Positions 11,205 to 19,689 of a stretch of DNA of 36,880 bases are shown here, piece by piece (within the stretch, counting starts at the first letter, position 1; the number at the start of each line of letters is the position of its first letter). The stretch is taken from the NCBI GenBank assembly GCA_030837225.1, contig JAUPKX010000003.1, positions 1 through 36,880 of the forward strand, in the 5' to 3' direction. The DNA is from Patescibacteria group bacterium. Lineage in GTDB: Bacteria; Patescibacteriota; Minisyncoccia; Phycocordibacterales; Phycocordibacteraceae. The notes under the pieces are model-generated. The model had not been told where the DNA came from and did not search any database. It saw only the letters and a program-made list of their open reading frames with translations. Both the position numbers and the translations under genes were made by a program.

Positions 11205-13940
11205 ATGGAGGGACCGACACTACCTATAACCTCGCCCGAGGACGAACTCGCGTACCTTCGCGAGCAGATCGCACGCAAGGAGGCTGAGCTCGCAACCTAC
11301 AAGCGCGACATGCCGCGTGAGGATATTGCACACGAGCGTATCCTGCATCACCGCATGAGCGGTCCAGAGACTGTACTTGCGCCCGAATTCCAAATGTCTG
11401 AACGGGACGCAGCAAAGCATGCAGAAATGCTTACCTTGAATCTTGATCCCGAGCAGAACGACGAGACAATCGCCGAGCTCCGCACGGTTATGGAAGAGAA
11501 GGGTATTCATAATGCGTTTACGATACTTGGGAAGCTCAACAATGCGCACCTCGAAGACGATTTCCATCGCTTCCTTGTGCAGTATCTCGTTGTTGGTATG
11601 CAGCCAAAGGGATTGGCCGAGAATCAGCCTGAATGGAAAGCGCTTCGGATGACCCTGTACGAGATCTCGCTTCCTGAAGCGAATACCGAAGAGTCACGCG
11701 GGAAGTCTCTCAAGGAACTCATATCCTCAATGGAGCAGTTCTACTCGGGTATGCTCGCTGTTGAGCATGCGGGCCGTGGCGAACCCGCCTACATGACGCT
11801 TGAGCTTGCAGTCCCTGTTGATGCGCCGCATCTTATGTTCTACGCGTCGGTGCCTAACACCCGGAAAGACCTCTTCGAGAACCAACTTCTTGCAATCTTT
11901 CCCCATGCGCATGTAAGCGCACAGCCGAATGATTACAACGTCTTCGTTGAAGGTGGAGAGTCCCTCGCCTCAGTAGCGGAATTTAAGGATAAGCCAATGC
12001 TTCCCCTGAAGGACTACCAGGACTTTGACTATGACCCTCTTAACTCTCTTCTAAGCGCGTTCGCTAAAGTGGCCCCTGAGAATGAGGGAGCGTCATTACA
12101 GATTGTTTTTAAACCCGAGGGGAATCACTATGTAGAGCACTATAGACGTGTACTTCATGCACTTCGCCAGGGCGAGCATCGTTCTCGGGCATTCAGTCTA
12201 CCGGAGACGTTTGCAGGAGACCTTGCGCGTGAGGCAGCAGGCCTTTTCTTCTCGGGAAAGAAGCAGACACAGACACAACCCATCGACGAGAAGGCGATTG
12301 AAATGGTTGAGAAGAAGATTGGGGCTCCAATAGTCTCGACCAATATCAGGCTCACTGTCTCATCGCAAGACAGCGGACGCGCCCACCAGATTCTTACCGA
12401 GCTCGAGTCTGCGTTCAATCAGTTTGATAACACCATAGGAAACCGTATCGAGTTCCGAAGACCGAACAAGGGTTCCTTGAAGCAGCTTCTAAGGGACTTC
12501 TCATTCCGTCTGTATCGTCCGTCGACCAACCTCCCGCTTTCTCTTCGTGAGTTAACGACGCTGTATCATTTCCCGCCACAGGGTATAGAGTCCTCGCCGC
12601 ATTTAAAGCAGTCACGTTTTGCAGGAGCTGCAGCGCCAGCAGATCTGCCGAAGGAGGGCACGGTACTTGGTACAAACACCTACCGCGGACAGACTACGGA
12701 CGTGCGTCTCGCACCAGAAGACCGTTTGAGACATCTCTATGTTATTGGGCAGACTGGTGCCGGAAAGACTGGATTCTTGAAGACGCAGATTGAGCAGGAT
12801 ATTAAAGCGGGGAACGGTGTTTGTTTTATCGATCCGCACGGCAACGACATTCTAGACGTGCTCGCTATGATCCCGCCAGAGCGGTACGAGGACGTGATTT
12901 ATTTTGATCCAGCGAATATCGATCGCCCATTTGGCCTCAACATGCTTGAGTACGATCCGAAGCGTCCTGAACAGAAGACGTTCATCGTGAATGAGATGCT
13001 CGCCATCTTCCGTCAGCTCTATGGCGACGTGCCCGAGTCCATGGGTCCGATGTTCGAGCAGTACTTCAGGAACGCTACGCAGCTCGTTATGGAAGACCCT
13101 GCATCAGGCTCCACCATGATGGATATTGGTCGGGTTATGTCGAATGCTGACTTCCGGAATCTGAAGCTAGCACGGAGCAACAATCCTATCGTTAACCAGT
13201 TTTGGTCTGAAATTGCGACCAAAGCTGAGGGTGAGGCTAGCCTTCAGAGCATCGTGCCGTGGATCACAAACAAGTTCGATGAGTTCACGACCAGCGATTT
13301 CATGCGGCCAATCATCGGGCAACAAGAAAGCTCATTCAACTTCAGGGAAGTTATCGATAACAAGAAGATTCTCCTCGTTAACCTCTCGAAGGGACGACTT
13401 GGGGAGCGCAACGCAAACCTCCTTGGACTCATCATCGTCGGTAAGCTCTTTATGGCCGCCCTCTCTCGCGCTGACGATCCAAGAGCGAACTTCCCACCGT
13501 TCTATCTCTATATTGACGAGTTCCAGAACATTACGACGTCTTCGATTCCAGGAATTCTTTCCGAAGCCCGCAAGTACAAGCTTTCGCTTACTATCGCGCA
13601 CCAGTACCTCGCTCAGGTAGACGAGAAGATTCGTGATGCGGTGTTTGGCAACGTTGGGTCTATGGCAGTGTTCCGTGTTGGACAGGAAGATGGAGAGTTC
13701 TTTGGAAAGCTGTTTGAGCCCACGTTTAAGGCAAGCGACTTCACGAGTATAGAGAACCAGAATGCGTACGTCCGTATGCTTGCTAAAGGTGTGCCTCAGA
13801 AGCCGTTCAATATAAAAACCCTTAGGTTAACCGAAGGAAACCTTGCGCAGGTAGACGATCTGAGAGAATTGTCATACCTCACCTATGGCAGGGACCGTGC
13901 TACTGTTGAAGCATCTATTAGGGCGCGATATCTTTCGTAA
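11205..13940 (+). CDS. VirD4/TrwB-like type IV secretion system DNA-binding ATPase
   Basis: A 911-residue ATPase. The first 500 residues match no domain I recognise and have helical segments. Walker A is GQTGAGKT (515-522), followed by GVCFIDPHGNDILD. Walker B is FYLYIDEFQNIT with Asp771 and Glu772, followed by SEARKYKLSLTIAHQYL, the segment typical of the TraG/TrwB/TraD coupling-protein AAD-binding family. Such proteins feed DNA or protein to a type IV secretion channel, and relatives are frequent in Candidate Phyla Radiation genomes near pilus genes. No relaxase, VirB4 or channel gene is seen in this window, so conjugation cannot be claimed. The next gene starts five bases after the stop. 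It probably works with that membrane protein. Confidence 0.87.
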   Translation: MEGPTLPITSPEDELAYLREQIARKEAELATYKRDMPREDIAHERILHHRMSGPETVLAPEFQMSERDAAKHAEMLTLNLDPEQNDETIAELRTVMEEKGIHNAFTILGKLNNAHLEDDFHRFLVQYLVVGMQPKGLAENQPEWKALRMTLYEISLPEANTEESRGKSLKELISSMEQFYSGMLAVEHAGRGEPAYMTLELAVPVDAPHLMFYASVPNTRKDLFENQLLAIFPHAHVSAQPNDYNVFVEGGESLASVAEFKDKPMLPLKDYQDFDYDPLNSLLSAFAKVAPENEGASLQIVFKPEGNHYVEHYRRVLHALRQGEHRSRAFSLPETFAGDLAREAAGLFFSGKKQTQTQPIDEKAIEMVEKKIGAPIVSTNIRLTVSSQDSGRAHQILTELESAFNQFDNTIGNRIEFRRPNKGSLKQLLRDFSFRLYRPSTNLPLSLRELTTLYHFPPQGIESSPHLKQSRFAGAAAPADLPKEGTVLGTNTYRGQTTDVRLAPEDRLRHLYVIGQTGAGKTGFLKTQIEQDIKAGNGVCFIDPHGNDILDVLAMIPPERYEDVIYFDPANIDRPFGLNMLEYDPKRPEQKTFIVNEMLAIFRQLYGDVPESMGPMFEQYFRNATQLVMEDPASGSTMMDIGRVMSNADFRNLKLARSNNPIVNQFWSEIATKAEGEASLQSIVPWITNKFDEFTTSDFMRPIIGQQESSFNFREVIDNKKILLVNLSKGRLGERNANLLGLIIVGKLFMAALSRADDPRANFPPFYLYIDEFQNITTSSIPGILSEARKYKLSLTIAHQYLAQVDEKIRDAVFGNVGSMAVFRVGQEDGEFFGKLFEPTFKASDFTSIENQNAYVRMLAKGVPQKPFNIKTLRLTEGNLAQVDDLRELSYLTYGRDRATVEASIRARYLS

Positions 13941-13945
13941 ATTGT

Positions 13946-16597
13946 ATGCTCAGAAGTCCTGATTTCCCGCCAAGGAAGAATGCAAGGAAGGTCTATGAAG
14001 ACCCGAAGAATACAGTGTCGGGAATCATGAGCATAGAGAAAGAGGGCGACGCATCGAGTGCGGGAGCGCATCTGAATGTCTCGGAAGAGCAGATAGCACT
14101 ACGTACTAAACAACTTGATGCAATTCTTGGTGAACCACCAGAGATTTCCATGGAGGAGGTGCTGCATTCTTACGAAGTAACGGCGAGTAAGGGGGCTACG
14201 CCCGCAAAAGCAGCTAAGCCAAGCAAGCTCAACATGAAGAAGCGTACGCATGGCGAAAAGAAAGCAGCAGCAAAGAAAACTGCAACATCTGGCTCGTACG
14301 AAGGAGACCCGCATTATGGTGTTCCCGCCGTAACTGGTGACTTCCTTGAAACCAGAAAGGATAGACATGATGCTCTGCGAGAAGCACTCGCGAGAAGCCA
14401 AGAACAGACTTCCAGTAAGGTCATTGCATTACCTGATCAGAGCGAAGAGCTTGCTGCTCCTGCTTCCGATGAAGCGACAGAAAACCTCAATCAGACACAA
14501 GAGGATTTGCGTGCTGTGAAGAGTCGTCTTGAGGCAAGAAAATCTCACGTTGAATATATCAACGCTAAGATTGAGGCTGTAGAGCAGCTCAAATACGAGA
14601 AGCTTCAGGAGTTTCATAAGAAGCGCTCCGCGCTTGGTCGGATAGCAGAGCAGTATACGGGCGAGTTGTTACCAAAGGAGATAAAGAGTCTCATGGCCAC
14701 TTCCGTAGAACTGCGTGGAGCCTATCTGAAGGAAACGATTGGTACCGTAGAAGAACGTAGAGCAGCACGCAAGCGCGACGAGAATAAGAATGAAGCAGTG
14801 CGGGAGCGATACCAGCGACGCTACGAATTCGAACGTCGCATGCTTATCGAGCCTGAGGAGCGAGAGATACAGGCACGCATAGAAGGTCTTGGTTCTCGGG
14901 AAAAGAAAGCCCTCGACACGTTATTTGATCGATACAAAGAGCTACCAGCTCCGTGGCGCATTTTAGGTACCTCGGGAGTTATGCTCGCAGGAGGAGTGGC
15001 GATTGGTGCTGGGCTCGGTACGGGTGTAGGACTTACCGCGCTTGCCATTGGTGGCATGTCAGCGGCAACGCGTCTCGCATCGCTATACCAAGAGAATAAG
15101 ACCGTTAAAGGTGCTCTTGAAAAAGCGGCGCGACTTACGGGCATTGGAGGTATCGTCGGCTTAGCACTTGAAAGTGCTGTGCACTTCGGGCATGACAAGA
15201 GCGGTACAGAGAAGAAAGCCCAGGCACTGCTGCAGCGAGGAGCGAAGATTGATAAAGACAAGACGCTGAATCTTGGTAACTTGAACATTTTCAAGAAGCT
15301 TCTTGCAGACCGTAAGAAAGCCAAGACCGCCAAGGAGAGAATAGAAATTCAGGCACGATGGGCACGATCCTTGGGATCGCTCGGTGCAGGTCTTGCGACA
15401 GGACATCTTATATCTGGTGTATTCAATGATGGTGATACTGAACTAACTTCAGGTGGGGTAGAGAACCCAACGGATACGACAGTTCACGCGCCCAGAACTG
15501 TAGCGGATTCAGCAAATACAACTGAAACACCTTCACCTGCAGAGGCTCCACGCGCCCCTGTCGCAGAAGTTAAGGCCGAACCAATAACAGCAACCATTGA
15601 TGCGGGCGAGGGCTTCAACAGGCTTTTCCTCGATTTGCGGGACTCAGCTGATACCAGGCTGCATGGTATGCAGGATGTGTCCTCCTCTTCCCCTGTTATG
15701 GAGTACTTGTTTACTGCATCGCCATCAGAACTCTCTGAGAGGATTGGAGCGTTCGATCCTGAAACCGGTAAGAGCATGATTATGCAGCCGGGAGACAAAC
15801 TCTTCTTAGATGATAAGGGGGATCTTTGGTTCCAGAAGGTAGGAGGAGAAGCGAAGCTCCTGATGGAGAATGACGCTACGGCACCGGGAGGGTTTAAGGT
15901 ACATGATTTGCCCGAGATACAGATCCCAGAGACTCCATTGTTAGTCGCAACGCAGGATCAGGTAGCAAAGACAGAATCAGATCCAACGCCCATAGCGGCA
16001 GAAGCCACTATAGAACCTGTTGAAACTACAGAAATCCCGTATGTTTCCGAAGGCAGTGCACCTATAGAGCTTGGTACTGATGAATCGATTGCGAGCGCTT
16101 CTCCCGAATCCAATCCTCAGGATGTTGAAGCGTTAATTCCGAGGGCTAATCTCGGCAGTATGAATGTCGATGCTAATCCCCAGGCTCCCGCAGGTGTCCT
16201 AAGAACCCAGAGCTTGGATTCTTGGGTAGAGACTTCAATCGAAGCTGACACTCACTCATTCTCGAATGCTTATGGCGTTGAGATAAATCCTTCCGAGCCA
16301 GCGGGGTATGAGTGGAGAGTTCCGGGCAGCAACGCAACTTTCACCGTTGCCTTTGGAGAGGATGCTGCCGCAACTGAAAGCTGGGCGCTTCGCGAGCTCG
16401 AGCTCCATCCTGAATCAAGAGTGCTGGTGAATTATACCGAGGTCAATCCACGTACCGGTGCTCTTGAAACAACTGTAGGAGCCTGGCAGATAGGTACAGA
16501 CGGCACGCCAGAGTTGCTGCGAGAGGTAACAAATCCAGAGAATGGCCAGAGACTCGTTGCGGTAGATCCGCAGGACTTTATTCGTAAGCTTCCATAA
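13946..16597 (+). CDS. Large membrane protein with coiled-coil N-terminal half
   Basis: An 883-residue protein I do not recognise. Residues 1-130 are low in complexity with a Lys/Ala patch. Residues 180-330 are charged, helical and likely coiled coil. Residues 338-378 form a glycine-rich hydrophobic segment (GVMLAGGVAIGAGLGTGVGL) and 396-412 a second, weaker one (LTGIGGIVGLALES). A third sits near 475-493. Residues 500-550 are a Pro/Thr/Ala linker, and two acidic, beta-looking regions follow (about 555-645 and 745-883). This suggests a cytoplasmic coiled coil, membrane hairpin and exported C-terminus. It directly follows the ATPase gene, so a shared secretion or pilus apparatus is the reasonable hypothesis. 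An in-frame ATG at 14027 is an alternative start. Confidence 0.82.
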   Translation: MLRSPDFPPRKNARKVYEDPKNTVSGIMSIEKEGDASSAGAHLNVSEEQIALRTKQLDAILGEPPEISMEEVLHSYEVTASKGATPAKAAKPSKLNMKKRTHGEKKAAAKKTATSGSYEGDPHYGVPAVTGDFLETRKDRHDALREALARSQEQTSSKVIALPDQSEELAAPASDEATENLNQTQEDLRAVKSRLEARKSHVEYINAKIEAVEQLKYEKLQEFHKKRSALGRIAEQYTGELLPKEIKSLMATSVELRGAYLKETIGTVEERRAARKRDENKNEAVRERYQRRYEFERRMLIEPEEREIQARIEGLGSREKKALDTLFDRYKELPAPWRILGTSGVMLAGGVAIGAGLGTGVGLTALAIGGMSAATRLASLYQENKTVKGALEKAARLTGIGGIVGLALESAVHFGHDKSGTEKKAQALLQRGAKIDKDKTLNLGNLNIFKKLLADRKKAKTAKERIEIQARWARSLGSLGAGLATGHLISGVFNDGDTELTSGGVENPTDTTVHAPRTVADSANTTETPSPAEAPRAPVAEVKAEPITATIDAGEGFNRLFLDLRDSADTRLHGMQDVSSSSPVMEYLFTASPSELSERIGAFDPETGKSMIMQPGDKLFLDDKGDLWFQKVGGEAKLLMENDATAPGGFKVHDLPEIQIPETPLLVATQDQVAKTESDPTPIAAEATIEPVETTEIPYVSEGSAPIELGTDESIASASPESNPQDVEALIPRANLGSMNVDANPQAPAGVLRTQSLDSWVETSIEADTHSFSNAYGVEINPSEPAGYEWRVPGSNATFTVAFGEDAAATESWALRELELHPESRVLVNYTEVNPRTGALETTVGAWQIGTDGTPELLREVTNPENGQRLVAVDPQDFIRKLP

Positions 16598-16608
16598 GAG
16601 TACCCAGT

Positions 16609-16911
16609 ATGAATGACACGAACCTTAGTCGCGTTCTGAATGCGTTACAAATTGGAGAACTTCCTCCTCAGGAGCAAGAGGCACTGTTACTTGACCTGAA
16701 CTCGCTTATTTTCCGCGGCTCAATGGTACGGCTGCTCGAACGTATGGATGAGCACACCAGGGATGAATTTGTGAAGCTTGTGGATACGGCAGCAGATGAA
16801 GAGACTATAGAGACATTCCTGAGGGCACATGTTCAGGATGCAGATAGTGCTGTTGCTGAAACCGTAAACGAAATTAGTGATGATATACTTGCGGTTACCG
16901 GCAATAAATAA
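16609..16911 (+). CDS. DUF5663-like small protein
   Basis: A 100-residue acidic helical protein. The opening LQIGELPPQEQEALLLDLNS followed by VRLLERMDEHTRDEFVKLVD has the pattern of DUF5663, a small domain seen mostly in Candidate Phyla Radiation genomes (recognised from memory, so tentative). No catalytic motif or membrane segment is present. It lies 11 bases after the large membrane protein and 9 bases before the FKBP gene, suggesting cotranscription with the ATPase operon. Confidence 0.72.
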   Translation: MNDTNLSRVLNALQIGELPPQEQEALLLDLNSLIFRGSMVRLLERMDEHTRDEFVKLVDTAADEETIETFLRAHVQDADSAVAETVNEISDDILAVTGNK

Positions 16912-16920
16912 CGTATAGCT

Positions 16921-17439
16921 ATGAATGTCACTGGAACTGGAATCGCTGTAGCGCTCGCTGTTGTAGTGGCGCTCGGCTTCCTTGCTCTTGGAACCCCAAT
17001 GTTTACTTCCCTTGGAGTTGCAACAACTGATCAGTCTATGGCCGTCGGTACTACTACCAATCAAACCGCTTCAACATCACCTATGGATCTCTCTTTGGCT
17101 CCCGGCGAGCCGCTTCCAACCGAACTCATGATTAACGACATCGTCGTTGGTACCGGCGCGGAAGCTACTCCTGGCTCCACCGTTACCGTTAATTACACCG
17201 GTGCGCTTCGAGATGGAACCGTCTTCGATAGTTCTGTCGGGCGTGGACCATTTACGTTCGGCCTCGGTGCGGGACAGGTTATCCGTGGATGGGATGAAGG
17301 CGTTGCTGGTATGAAAGTGGGAGGTAAGCGTCGTCTCGTCATTCCTGCAGATAAGGCATATGGAAACCAGGCAGTGGGTGGTGTTATACCTGCGAATGCA
17401 ACGCTCCTCTTTGACGTTGAGCTTGTCTCAGTTCAGTAA
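16921..17439 (+). CDS. Membrane-anchored FKBP-type peptidyl-prolyl isomerase
   Basis: A 172-residue protein. Residues 6-28 are a hydrophobic anchor (GIAVALAVVVALGFLALG), 35-65 a Ser/Thr/Pro linker, and 70-172 a single FKBP domain. Binding-pocket residues can be placed: Tyr92 (VNYTG), Phe102 and Asp103 (VFDSS), Val120-Ile121 and Trp124 (VIRGWDEG), Tyr147 and Phe164. FKBPs catalyse cis-trans isomerisation at prolines and help folding, here probably outside the cytoplasmic membrane. As the last gene of the ATPase operon it may fold exported parts of that apparatus. A terminator follows. Confidence 0.93.
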   Translation: MNVTGTGIAVALAVVVALGFLALGTPMFTSLGVATTDQSMAVGTTTNQTASTSPMDLSLAPGEPLPTELMINDIVVGTGAEATPGSTVTVNYTGALRDGTVFDSSVGRGPFTFGLGAGQVIRGWDEGVAGMKVGGKRRLVIPADKAYGNQAVGGVIPANATLLFDVELVSVQ

Positions 17440-17513: not shown

Positions 17514-18317
17514 TTACCGACGAACGATGCCGTTCCGGATGGGATCGGTGATCGTTTCGTCGAGGGGTAGGGTCGGGATGGTCGCCGGGTTGGCGAGCGC
17601 CGGATACATGCCCACGCAGGTCGGGTAGACCTGCTCGAGCCAGGCGCGCTCGCTGCGGCCCCACAACAGGTTCGCCCGAATGGACAGACGGTTGAACAGC
17701 AGCGAGAGCATGTTCGATTCGCGGCTCAGCTCCTGGGCATATTGATCGCCCTGGCGCCGCACCTCGTTCGAACCAGCCCCCGCGACGACCATGATGCCGT
17801 GCTCGAGCAGATCTTCCGGATTCCGAATGATCTGAATCAGACCCAGCAGAGCCTGGAGAAAGTTCGCCGCGCCGCCGACGCGTCCCGACCGACGAATGTG
17901 TTCGGACAGGTTGATGTCGTAGCGGTTGAACAGACTCAGGTACATGGGATCGAGTTGGGCGATCAGGCCCATGATCTCGGCGAGCTCGTTGACGTCTTCG
18001 CCCGCGATGGTGCAGGCGTTCTCACCGGCGCTGGCGTATTCCTGGTAGAGCGCGATGCTCTCCGGGGTATCACCGTACGCGGCTTTCCAGTCGTCGAGCG
18101 AGGTCGTGCGAAGCACGCCCCGAACGTTGTACGCCTGCATCGGCAGCGGTTGGCCGCCGGGCAAGGGACTCGACATGTCGACGATGATCTGCCGGGGCAG
18201 GGTTTGGTCGGCTTGACGAGCGGGGACCGAGCTCGGAATGACTTGGGCGGCGGCAGAGCCGGCGCCCAGGATGAGTGCGATGGAGGCCACCGCACCCAGG
18301 ATGTTGGTCTTGGTCAT
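17514..18317 (-). CDS. High-GC exported protein of unknown function, probably acquired
   Basis: A 267-residue protein. Residues 1-24 are a clear signal peptide (ILGAVASIALILGAGSAAA) with likely cleavage before Gln25. The mature part is mostly helical with two cysteines (102 and 234), able to form a disulfide. A weakly hydrophobic stretch lies near 155-165 (LQALLGLIQII). I recognise no family. The gene stands apart from its surroundings: bases 17521-17700 are 66% GC by count against about half elsewhere, codons end in G or C, it lies on the minus strand, its ATG is preceded by GGGAGG, and its promoter is a perfect TTGACA-17-TATAAT. Signal peptide and composition resemble those of proteobacteria. 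Horizontal acquisition is the natural reading. A misassembled contaminant segment should be excluded. Confidence 0.8.
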   Translation of the reverse strand: MTKTNILGAVASIALILGAGSAAAQVIPSSVPARQADQTLPRQIIVDMSSPLPGGQPLPMQAYNVRGVLRTTSLDDWKAAYGDTPESIALYQEYASAGENACTIAGEDVNELAEIMGLIAQLDPMYLSLFNRYDINLSEHIRRSGRVGGAANFLQALLGLIQIIRNPEDLLEHGIMVVAGAGSNEVRRQGDQYAQELSRESNMLSLLFNRLSIRANLLWGRSERAWLEQVYPTCVGMYPALANPATIPTLPLDETITDPIRNGIVRR

Positions 18318-18388
18318 GGTGATGACCTCCCTGTTGTGAGTTCTTTCTACCTAAATGGATTGTAAAGAACTCGGTTTGAACTAGAAAC

Positions 18389-18417
18389 ATTATAGAGGTC
18401 TCTTGACAGCTTGTCAA
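18389..18417 (-). promoter_or_regulatory. Consensus sigma-70 promoter of the high-GC exported protein
   Basis: On the minus strand TTGACA occupies 18417-18412, a 17-base spacer follows, and TATAAT occupies 18394-18389: both hexamers match the consensus perfectly. The transcript would start near 18382 and have a leader of about 65 bases with GGGAGG before ATG 18317. Confidence 0.8.
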
Positions 18418-18474: not shown

Positions 18475-19689
18475 ATGAGACCTATTTCTTTCTCCATTAC
18501 AGCGAAGCAAGGAAATGCCCGGGCGGGCATCCTTTCAACGCCGCATGGCGATATCCAGACACCGGCATTCATACCGGTTGGGACAAAAGCTGGTGTCAAA
18601 GGAGTGTTGCCTGATCAACTGAAAGCGCTGGGCGCTCAGGCTGTATTAGCGAACACCTACCATCTTTACCTTCAACCTGGTGAAGGGGTTGTGAAGGATG
18701 GTGGAGGTCTTGGTACCTTTATGGGCTTTGACGGACCAACCATGACCGACTCTGGAGGGTTCCAGGTGTTTTCCTTGGGTGCTGCGTTTGGTCGCACCAT
18801 AACGAAGATTGCGAAGGGCGAAGAGAATGAGCGCGATCAGGGTGTCGCAGTATTTGACGAAGATGTACAAACCCAACATGGCCAGCTTGCGGTTATTGAT
18901 GAGGAAGGGGTTACCTTCACTTCGCATCATGACGGTTCTCTTCATCGCTTTACACCAGAGCGCTCCATAGAAATCCAGCATGCACTTGGCGCTGATATGT
19001 TCTTCGCGTTTGACGAGTGCACATCCCCTACAGAACCGTACGAGTACCAAGGAGAAGCAATGAACAGAACGCATAAGTGGGCAGAACGTTCGTTGAAGGC
19101 ACATCGCCAGAATATCGAAGCGAATAGGAAGCAGGGAATCTTCGGGATTATCCAAGGAGGCAGGTTCGAAGATCTGCGCGAAGAGAGTGCGAAAGAGATT
19201 GCGTCGATGGATTTCGATGGGTTTGGTATCGGCGGATCGTTTAGCAAGGAAGATATGATGGGCGCGCTTCAGGCGGCTGTGAAGCATCTGCCAGAAGAAA
19301 AACCTCGACACTTCCTGGGTATCGGCGAGCCAGGCGATCTTTTGCTTGGCATCCAAGAAGGCATGGACACCTTTGATTGTGTTGCTGCCACCAGACTCGG
19401 GCGACACGGGACTATCTATACAAAGCGCGGCCCAATACACATGAAGAAGGAGCAGTATCTTTCAGACTACGGGCCGCTCGATCCAGAGACTTCTGTTCCA
19501 GGTACCGAAAACTTCTCACGTGCGTATCTCTCACACCTTATTCGTGCGAATGAGATATCCGGACAGGTTATAGCTTCGATGCATAACCTTGGATTCATAC
19601 TGCAGTTGGTTGATGGGGCACGAGCGGCGATTCTCGAAGGGAAGTTCGACGAGTATAAGGATGCGTTCCTTGCTTCGTACTACGCGTAG
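18475..19689 (+). CDS. tgt: tRNA-guanine transglycosylase lacking the zinc cysteines
   Basis: A 404-residue protein that covers the whole TGT fold, which exchanges guanine 34 of certain tRNAs for a queuosine precursor. Conserved parts include TMTDSGGFQVFSLG (base-binding Asp), FAFDECTSP, FGIIQGG and FDCVAATRLGR, whose Asp is the nucleophile. Two departures are clear. The zinc site C-x-C-x2-C is replaced by Thr339, Val341 and Thr344 in GPLDPETSVPGTENFSRAYL, leaving only the fourth ligand, His370. The substrate-binding loop, normally GGLAVGE, reads GGSFSKED and is about four residues shorter. The enzyme may be stabilised without zinc and may accept a different base, for example scavenged queuine. 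No preQ1 synthesis genes are nearby. Start 18475 fits its promoter. Confidence 0.93.
   Translation: MRPISFSITAKQGNARAGILSTPHGDIQTPAFIPVGTKAGVKGVLPDQLKALGAQAVLANTYHLYLQPGEGVVKDGGGLGTFMGFDGPTMTDSGGFQVFSLGAAFGRTITKIAKGEENERDQGVAVFDEDVQTQHGQLAVIDEEGVTFTSHHDGSLHRFTPERSIEIQHALGADMFFAFDECTSPTEPYEYQGEAMNRTHKWAERSLKAHRQNIEANRKQGIFGIIQGGRFEDLREESAKEIASMDFDGFGIGGSFSKEDMMGALQAAVKHLPEEKPRHFLGIGEPGDLLLGIQEGMDTFDCVAATRLGRHGTIYTKRGPIHMKKEQYLSDYGPLDPETSVPGTENFSRAYLSHLIRANEISGQVIASMHNLGFILQLVDGARAAILEGKFDEYKDAFLASYYA

Follow-up and report, generated by a model that had tools for sequence, protein, structure and literature searches.

Between fkbp and tgt, and on the strand opposite to both, the window (the whole 36,880-nt stretch of DNA analysed here) carries a single GC-rich gene for an exported protein, which raises the question whether the gene is a newcomer or a standing part of the genome, and for which cell its product is made. 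A sequence-only reading had taken it for a single foreign gene, recently acquired and host-derived, and most of the observations behind that reading hold. The GC content at 17521-17700, given as 66%, was counted as 66.1%, compared to 63.8% over the gene and 51.8% over the remaining window, and the opposite orientation is evident from the strands in Table 1. Codon choice is GC-ending and foreign-looking as claimed, with a GC3 that ranks first among the 650 ORFs of the 667-kb genome, where ORFs of at least 150 aa have a mean of 0.557 with a standard deviation of 0.072. CTG makes up 0.53 of its leucine codons vs 0.11 in the genome and 0.03 in ribosomal proteins, and CGG makes up 0.42 of its arginine codons vs 0.10 and 0.01. 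The ribosomal genes of the same genome are likewise GC3-rich (0.67), but with other codons, and the gene also differs in usage from the elongation factor genes, an argument against explaining its GC3 simply by high expression. The predicted export could be confirmed as well, the signal peptide being of type I and ending, by eye, in GSAAA before Q, and the Shine-Dalgarno region is as strong as described. The promoter is indeed perfect and rare, with two perfect TTGACA-17-TATAAT copies in the window genome and 9 of 12 positions in the best other match within 10-30 kb. A strong stem-loop between fkbp and the gene is a candidate bidirectional terminator of both.

Table 1. Coordinates of features at the fkbp-tgt slot, in its neighbourhood and at the outer-membrane barrel locus (window positions unless a genome and contig are given)
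Feature	Position	Strand	Description
VirD4/TraD-like ATPase	11205..13940	+	Candidate coupling protein of a type IV secretion system (T4SS); Pfam TraG-D_C, E 7.5e-5, just over cut-off
883-aa protein	13946..16597	+	ORF; no Pfam family; weakly conserved
100-aa protein	16609..16911	+	Weak DUF5663 match, below cut-off
fkbp	16921..17439	+	FKBP-type peptidyl-prolyl isomerase with hydrophobic N-terminus; Pfam FKBP_C, E 3e-33; left flank of the slot
Stem-loop	17459..17489	.	Between fkbp and cassette; A/T runs either side; fold z-score -3.2
Cassette gene	17514..18317	-	267-aa Sec-exported protein; GC3 0.82; cysteines C102 and C234; start codon ATG at 18317
Shine-Dalgarno region	18318..18330	-	Strong; GGAGGTCATCACC 5' of ATG, read in sequence
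Promoter	18389..18417	-	Sigma-70 type, TTGACA-17-TATAAT; 12/12 consensus positions
tgt	18475..19689	+	Queuine tRNA-ribosyltransferase, named from sequence; right flank of the slot
OMP_b-brl locus (L142)	G000 C12:3225-3899		Beside a lepA-like gene
OMP_b-brl counterpart (L143)	G480 C3:72241-72882		33% identical, equally GC-rich

The conclusions drawn from these observations fare differently. Comparison of the locus in sister genomes, which had been suggested as a check, reveals the same gene between the same flanks in the sister species G484, 84% identical and with a similar GC3 of 0.79, so that a recent one-off acquisition was rejected. The window gene is intact and under selection, with a dN/dS of 0.23 against this orthologue. 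Nor could a host origin be substantiated: searches of plasmids, phages and viral contigs returned no homologue, those of genome contigs, confined to close matches, no donor homologue, and those of the phylum sample short matches alone (E 0.003-0.01), which leaves the label host-derived unproven. The protein matches no family in Pfam, NCBIfam or PHROG; a PDB match to a DegV protein is weak (E 7e-4 over 79 residues), and the predicted model of the protein, with a pLDDT of 37, is uninformative.

The position of the gene is more telling. Within the genus, Ca. Kaiserbacteria, whose members are tiny and probably depend on a host (93 genomes in the search set), fkbp was found in 73 of 79 genomes, in most of them with tgt next to it, and the interval between the two could be read at 70 loci. 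An exported gene, hereafter cassette, occupies this slot at 48 of them (39 on the minus and 9 on the plus strand), which also speaks against a single acquired gene; about 15 loci are empty with gaps of 23-172 bp, one runs off its contig and six hold other content or are unclassified. BLAST links 44 of the 48 cassette proteins into one highly divergent set, leaving the window protein and the alleles L009, L015 and L024 as singletons. A profile of this set retrieved no second copy in the window genome and, from 287 phylum genomes, nothing convincing beyond the genus, and no family in Pfam, NCBIfam or PHROG covers it. For the best conserved cassette type, the only matches among genome contigs came from Kaiserbacteria, Nomurabacteria and MAG contigs, and there, too, the cassettes adjoin fkbp and mostly tgt as well. 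Among the minus-strand cassettes with enough upstream DNA (n=38), TTGACA is present in all 38, compared to 1.5 expected by chance, with a correctly spaced -10-like element in 31. The promoter is therefore a standing part of the slot and, although its perfect form is rare in the window genome, not the mark of foreign origin it had been taken for. The gene at 17514-18317 is thus an allele of a hypervariable slot for exported proteins that is found across the genus and whose strong promoter is conserved. At three loci (L037, L038 and L039) the interval extends to 1.4-1.9 kb, and L038 and L039 each hold two different lipoprotein-type cassettes in tandem.

Comparison of close species illustrates how readily the slot changes its content. 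Between the window and G480, a close species, the flanks are 72-78% identical in DNA and the tgt products 88-90% in amino acids, and the cassettes show no similarity; in other close pairs, cassette type, orientation or presence differ. Between the window and G484, dS is 0.40 in the cassette vs 0.95-1.7 in five neighbours, and the low synonymous divergence extends over the first ~100 codons of tgt, suggesting that the cassette was exchanged through the flank by homologous recombination. Synonymous divergence is likewise low at the starts of uvrA and uvrB, rendering the recombination tract suggestive only. We infer that species swap alleles through homologous recombination in the conserved flanks and that selection retains these alleles. 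Cassette composition does not follow the resident genome: over 40 genomes, the GC3 of fkbp tracks that of tgt (r=0.91, slope 1.04), while that of the cassette is nearly independent of the genome as represented by tgt (r=0.08, slope 0.06). In three species of low GC whose cassettes are orthologous, GC at fourfold sites reaches 0.77-0.83 in the cassette vs 0.16-0.18 in fkbp; since ~35% of the cassette fourfold sites have changed between these species, the bias is maintained and not fading. The exported genes of the slot are genus-wide, hypervariable and under selection, with a conserved promoter element and a codon usage decoupled from that of the genome.

The sorting signals of the cassettes point to a second peculiarity. 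A canonical lipobox signal is present in 43 of the 48 cassettes, the lipobox cysteine (Cys22) is conserved to at least 90% in alignment A1, and the N-terminus of the cassette profile matches known lipoproteins; by signal peptide, lipobox and +1 cysteine, most slot alleles are predicted bacterial lipoproteins. LspA, however, was detected in 0 of 92 genomes of the genus, while the same search found it in 198 of 380 phylum genomes. Lgt was likewise detected in 0 of 92, in a search which missed its B. subtilis control and is therefore not fully sensitive and weaker than that for LspA. A lipobox tag in cells in which the enzymes reading it are undetected suggests the surface of a host cell as a possible destination of the proteins. 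The window allele deviates from this pattern, since its signal, ending ...GAGSAAAQ without a cysteine, is negative in the lipobox test; with a type-I signal and no lipobox, it would be a soluble periplasmic or surface protein. It shares site, promoter and size with the slot lipoprotein family of A1, to which neither a profile match nor hhalign (probability 0.8%) connects it, and shows weak similarity to allele L024 (E 0.019) with both cysteines aligned. Only one other credible lipobox protein was seen in the window genome (G000 C1:33104-33745), with a GC3 of 0.69.

A possible export route lies close by. The VirD4/TraD-like gene lies upstream of the slot, in the gene run that leads up to it, and was found upstream in 20 of 20 sister genomes checked, whether the slot was empty or occupied; since it is present even at empty slots, the neighbourhood alone is no proof of cargo. 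Between it and fkbp, the 883-aa protein has 26-31% matches in 4 of the 20 sister upstream regions, and the 100-aa protein is conserved in part of the genus. VirB4-, PrgI- and VirB6-like genes were found by reading near dnaA. A type IV secretion system is described for Patescibacteria, with VirD4 homologues mostly apart from virB4, in the portion of PMC12102498 drawn on here; the genes of the window genome resemble that system, whereas the fkbp-tgt slot, or cargo for it, is not described in that portion.

Two kinds of known system invite comparison with the slot. TraT is a surface-exclusion outer-membrane lipoprotein of F-like plasmids (PMC11733297). Like TraT (~240 aa, membrane-embedded helices), the slot lipoproteins are, by their signals, exported lipoproteins, and as traT adjoins traD in F, the slot is situated near a coupling-protein-type gene. 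Different from TraT, the producing genus is without detected lipidation enzymes and the window allele without a lipobox. An identity with TraT by sequence was rejected, since hhalign aligned the signal peptide and nothing beyond, and the TraT profile (PF05818) against 42 slot members gave a best E of 0.3, for one member. The model of the slot family (pLDDT 72) predicts a lipobox and a flexible linker, followed by three helices with a strand on either side; Foldseek returned nothing significant for it, and VIA-align places the TraT decamer among its best matches (Z 5.4, rmsd 4.7 over 102 residues), tied with unrelated helical proteins. Antigenic-variation loci and effector hotspots, on the other hand, resemble the slot in that the flanks are fixed, each genome has a single divergent exported gene or an empty site, and there are signs of recombinational exchange, but differ from it in that the codon usage of the slot is decoupled from the resident genome and its sorting signal apparently unreadable by the resident cell.

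We tentatively favour, at somewhat short of an even chance, a reading in which the cassette proteins target the envelope of a Gram-negative host and work there like a surface-exclusion or attachment protein. The Kaiserbacterium would make the cassette protein, or hand on the protein or its gene, perhaps via the type IV secretion system; in the case of lipobox cassettes, Lgt and LspA of the host would lipidate the protein and so fix it in the envelope of the host, its role there being attachment or surface exclusion in a TraT-like manner. The window allele would represent a minority form, soluble and possibly disulphide-bonded, and its missing lipobox, together with the absence of demonstrable homology to the lipoprotein family, counts against this reading. 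A stricter version, in which the cassette proteins or genes function only after transfer into the Gram-negative host, whose envelope they refit, is rather unlikely; its basis would be Gram-negative sorting signals that the producer may be unable to process, combined with the genome-independent codon usage. The main rival to host-envelope targeting, possible though on the doubtful side, is that the cassette product is a surface antigen of the Kaiserbacterium itself, cleaved by signal peptidase I or kept as a membrane-anchored precursor, and that its contact with the host cell or phages makes it vary. Bacteria often carry hypervariable single surface genes, and the strong conserved promoter, the ordinary type-I signal of the window allele and the Sec-type signal peptides which a crude scan found on other proteins of the window genome fit such a role; left without explanation are the near-invariant lipobox cysteine in a genus where Lgt and LspA are undetected, and the decoupled codon usage that is not of the ribosomal type.

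Foreign codon usage, Gram-negative-type signals and the coexistence of empty and occupied states could also result from recurrent import, in which high-GC exported Gram-negative genes repeatedly enter a permissive site and are used unchanged. This we consider improbable, as nearly all cassettes form one linked set with no convincing member outside the genus in the phylum sample, single members have no match in plasmids or phages, the contig matches of the best conserved type are restricted as given above and lie beside fkbp, and orthologues stay high-GC through substantial synonymous change. Small variable lipoproteins with their own strong promoters are typical of phage-linked exclusion genes, and the Cor superinfection-exclusion PHROG is matched, though weakly (best E 0.005), by two slot members; a gene of this type, shielding the cell or its host from superinfection, is nevertheless very improbable here, with no match in phage records or viral contigs and no phage genes seen at the slot. 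The strong break in composition might finally suggest an assembly artefact or contaminating sequence, a chance that is practically negligible given the same gene and flanks in a second species and the same slot in independent public contigs, on which contamination and misassembly were rejected.

Returning to host-envelope targeting, the proposal that the window protein acts at the cell-cell interface is plausible. Little is known so far of the molecules with which Patescibacteria influence their hosts, and the slot names candidates in dozens of species. The lipobox in the face of missing lipidation enzymes is a testable clue to the cell in which these proteins are processed and, consequently, to the kind of host. 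If the cassettes are host-directed, they would be a novel means by which an epibiont changes the surface of its bacterial host.

A second locus likewise fits host-envelope targeting. The window genome encodes a protein of high GC with an OMP_b-brl match (PF13505, E 2e-18), whose flanks are 77-95% identical to those of its counterpart in G480, making this a second fast-diverging locus shared with that species; among 92 genomes of the genus, only 5 have OMP_b-brl matches. The known maturation routes of lipobox proteins and outer-membrane barrel proteins belong to Gram-negative cells. E. coli BamA gave chance-level matches alone against the window genome, in what is a weak test. Two further exported, strand-rich proteins ending in phenylalanine (G000 C1:64216-64962 and C14:56-577), with weak or no Pfam match, are possibly barrels. 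An exported, GC-rich, cysteine-containing protein is encoded between dnaK-like and dnaJ-like genes (G000 C6:39086-39703), and in another genome (G053, L149:17183-18319) a 378-aa membrane protein displays a GC3 of 0.89, compared to a genome sample mean of 0.44.
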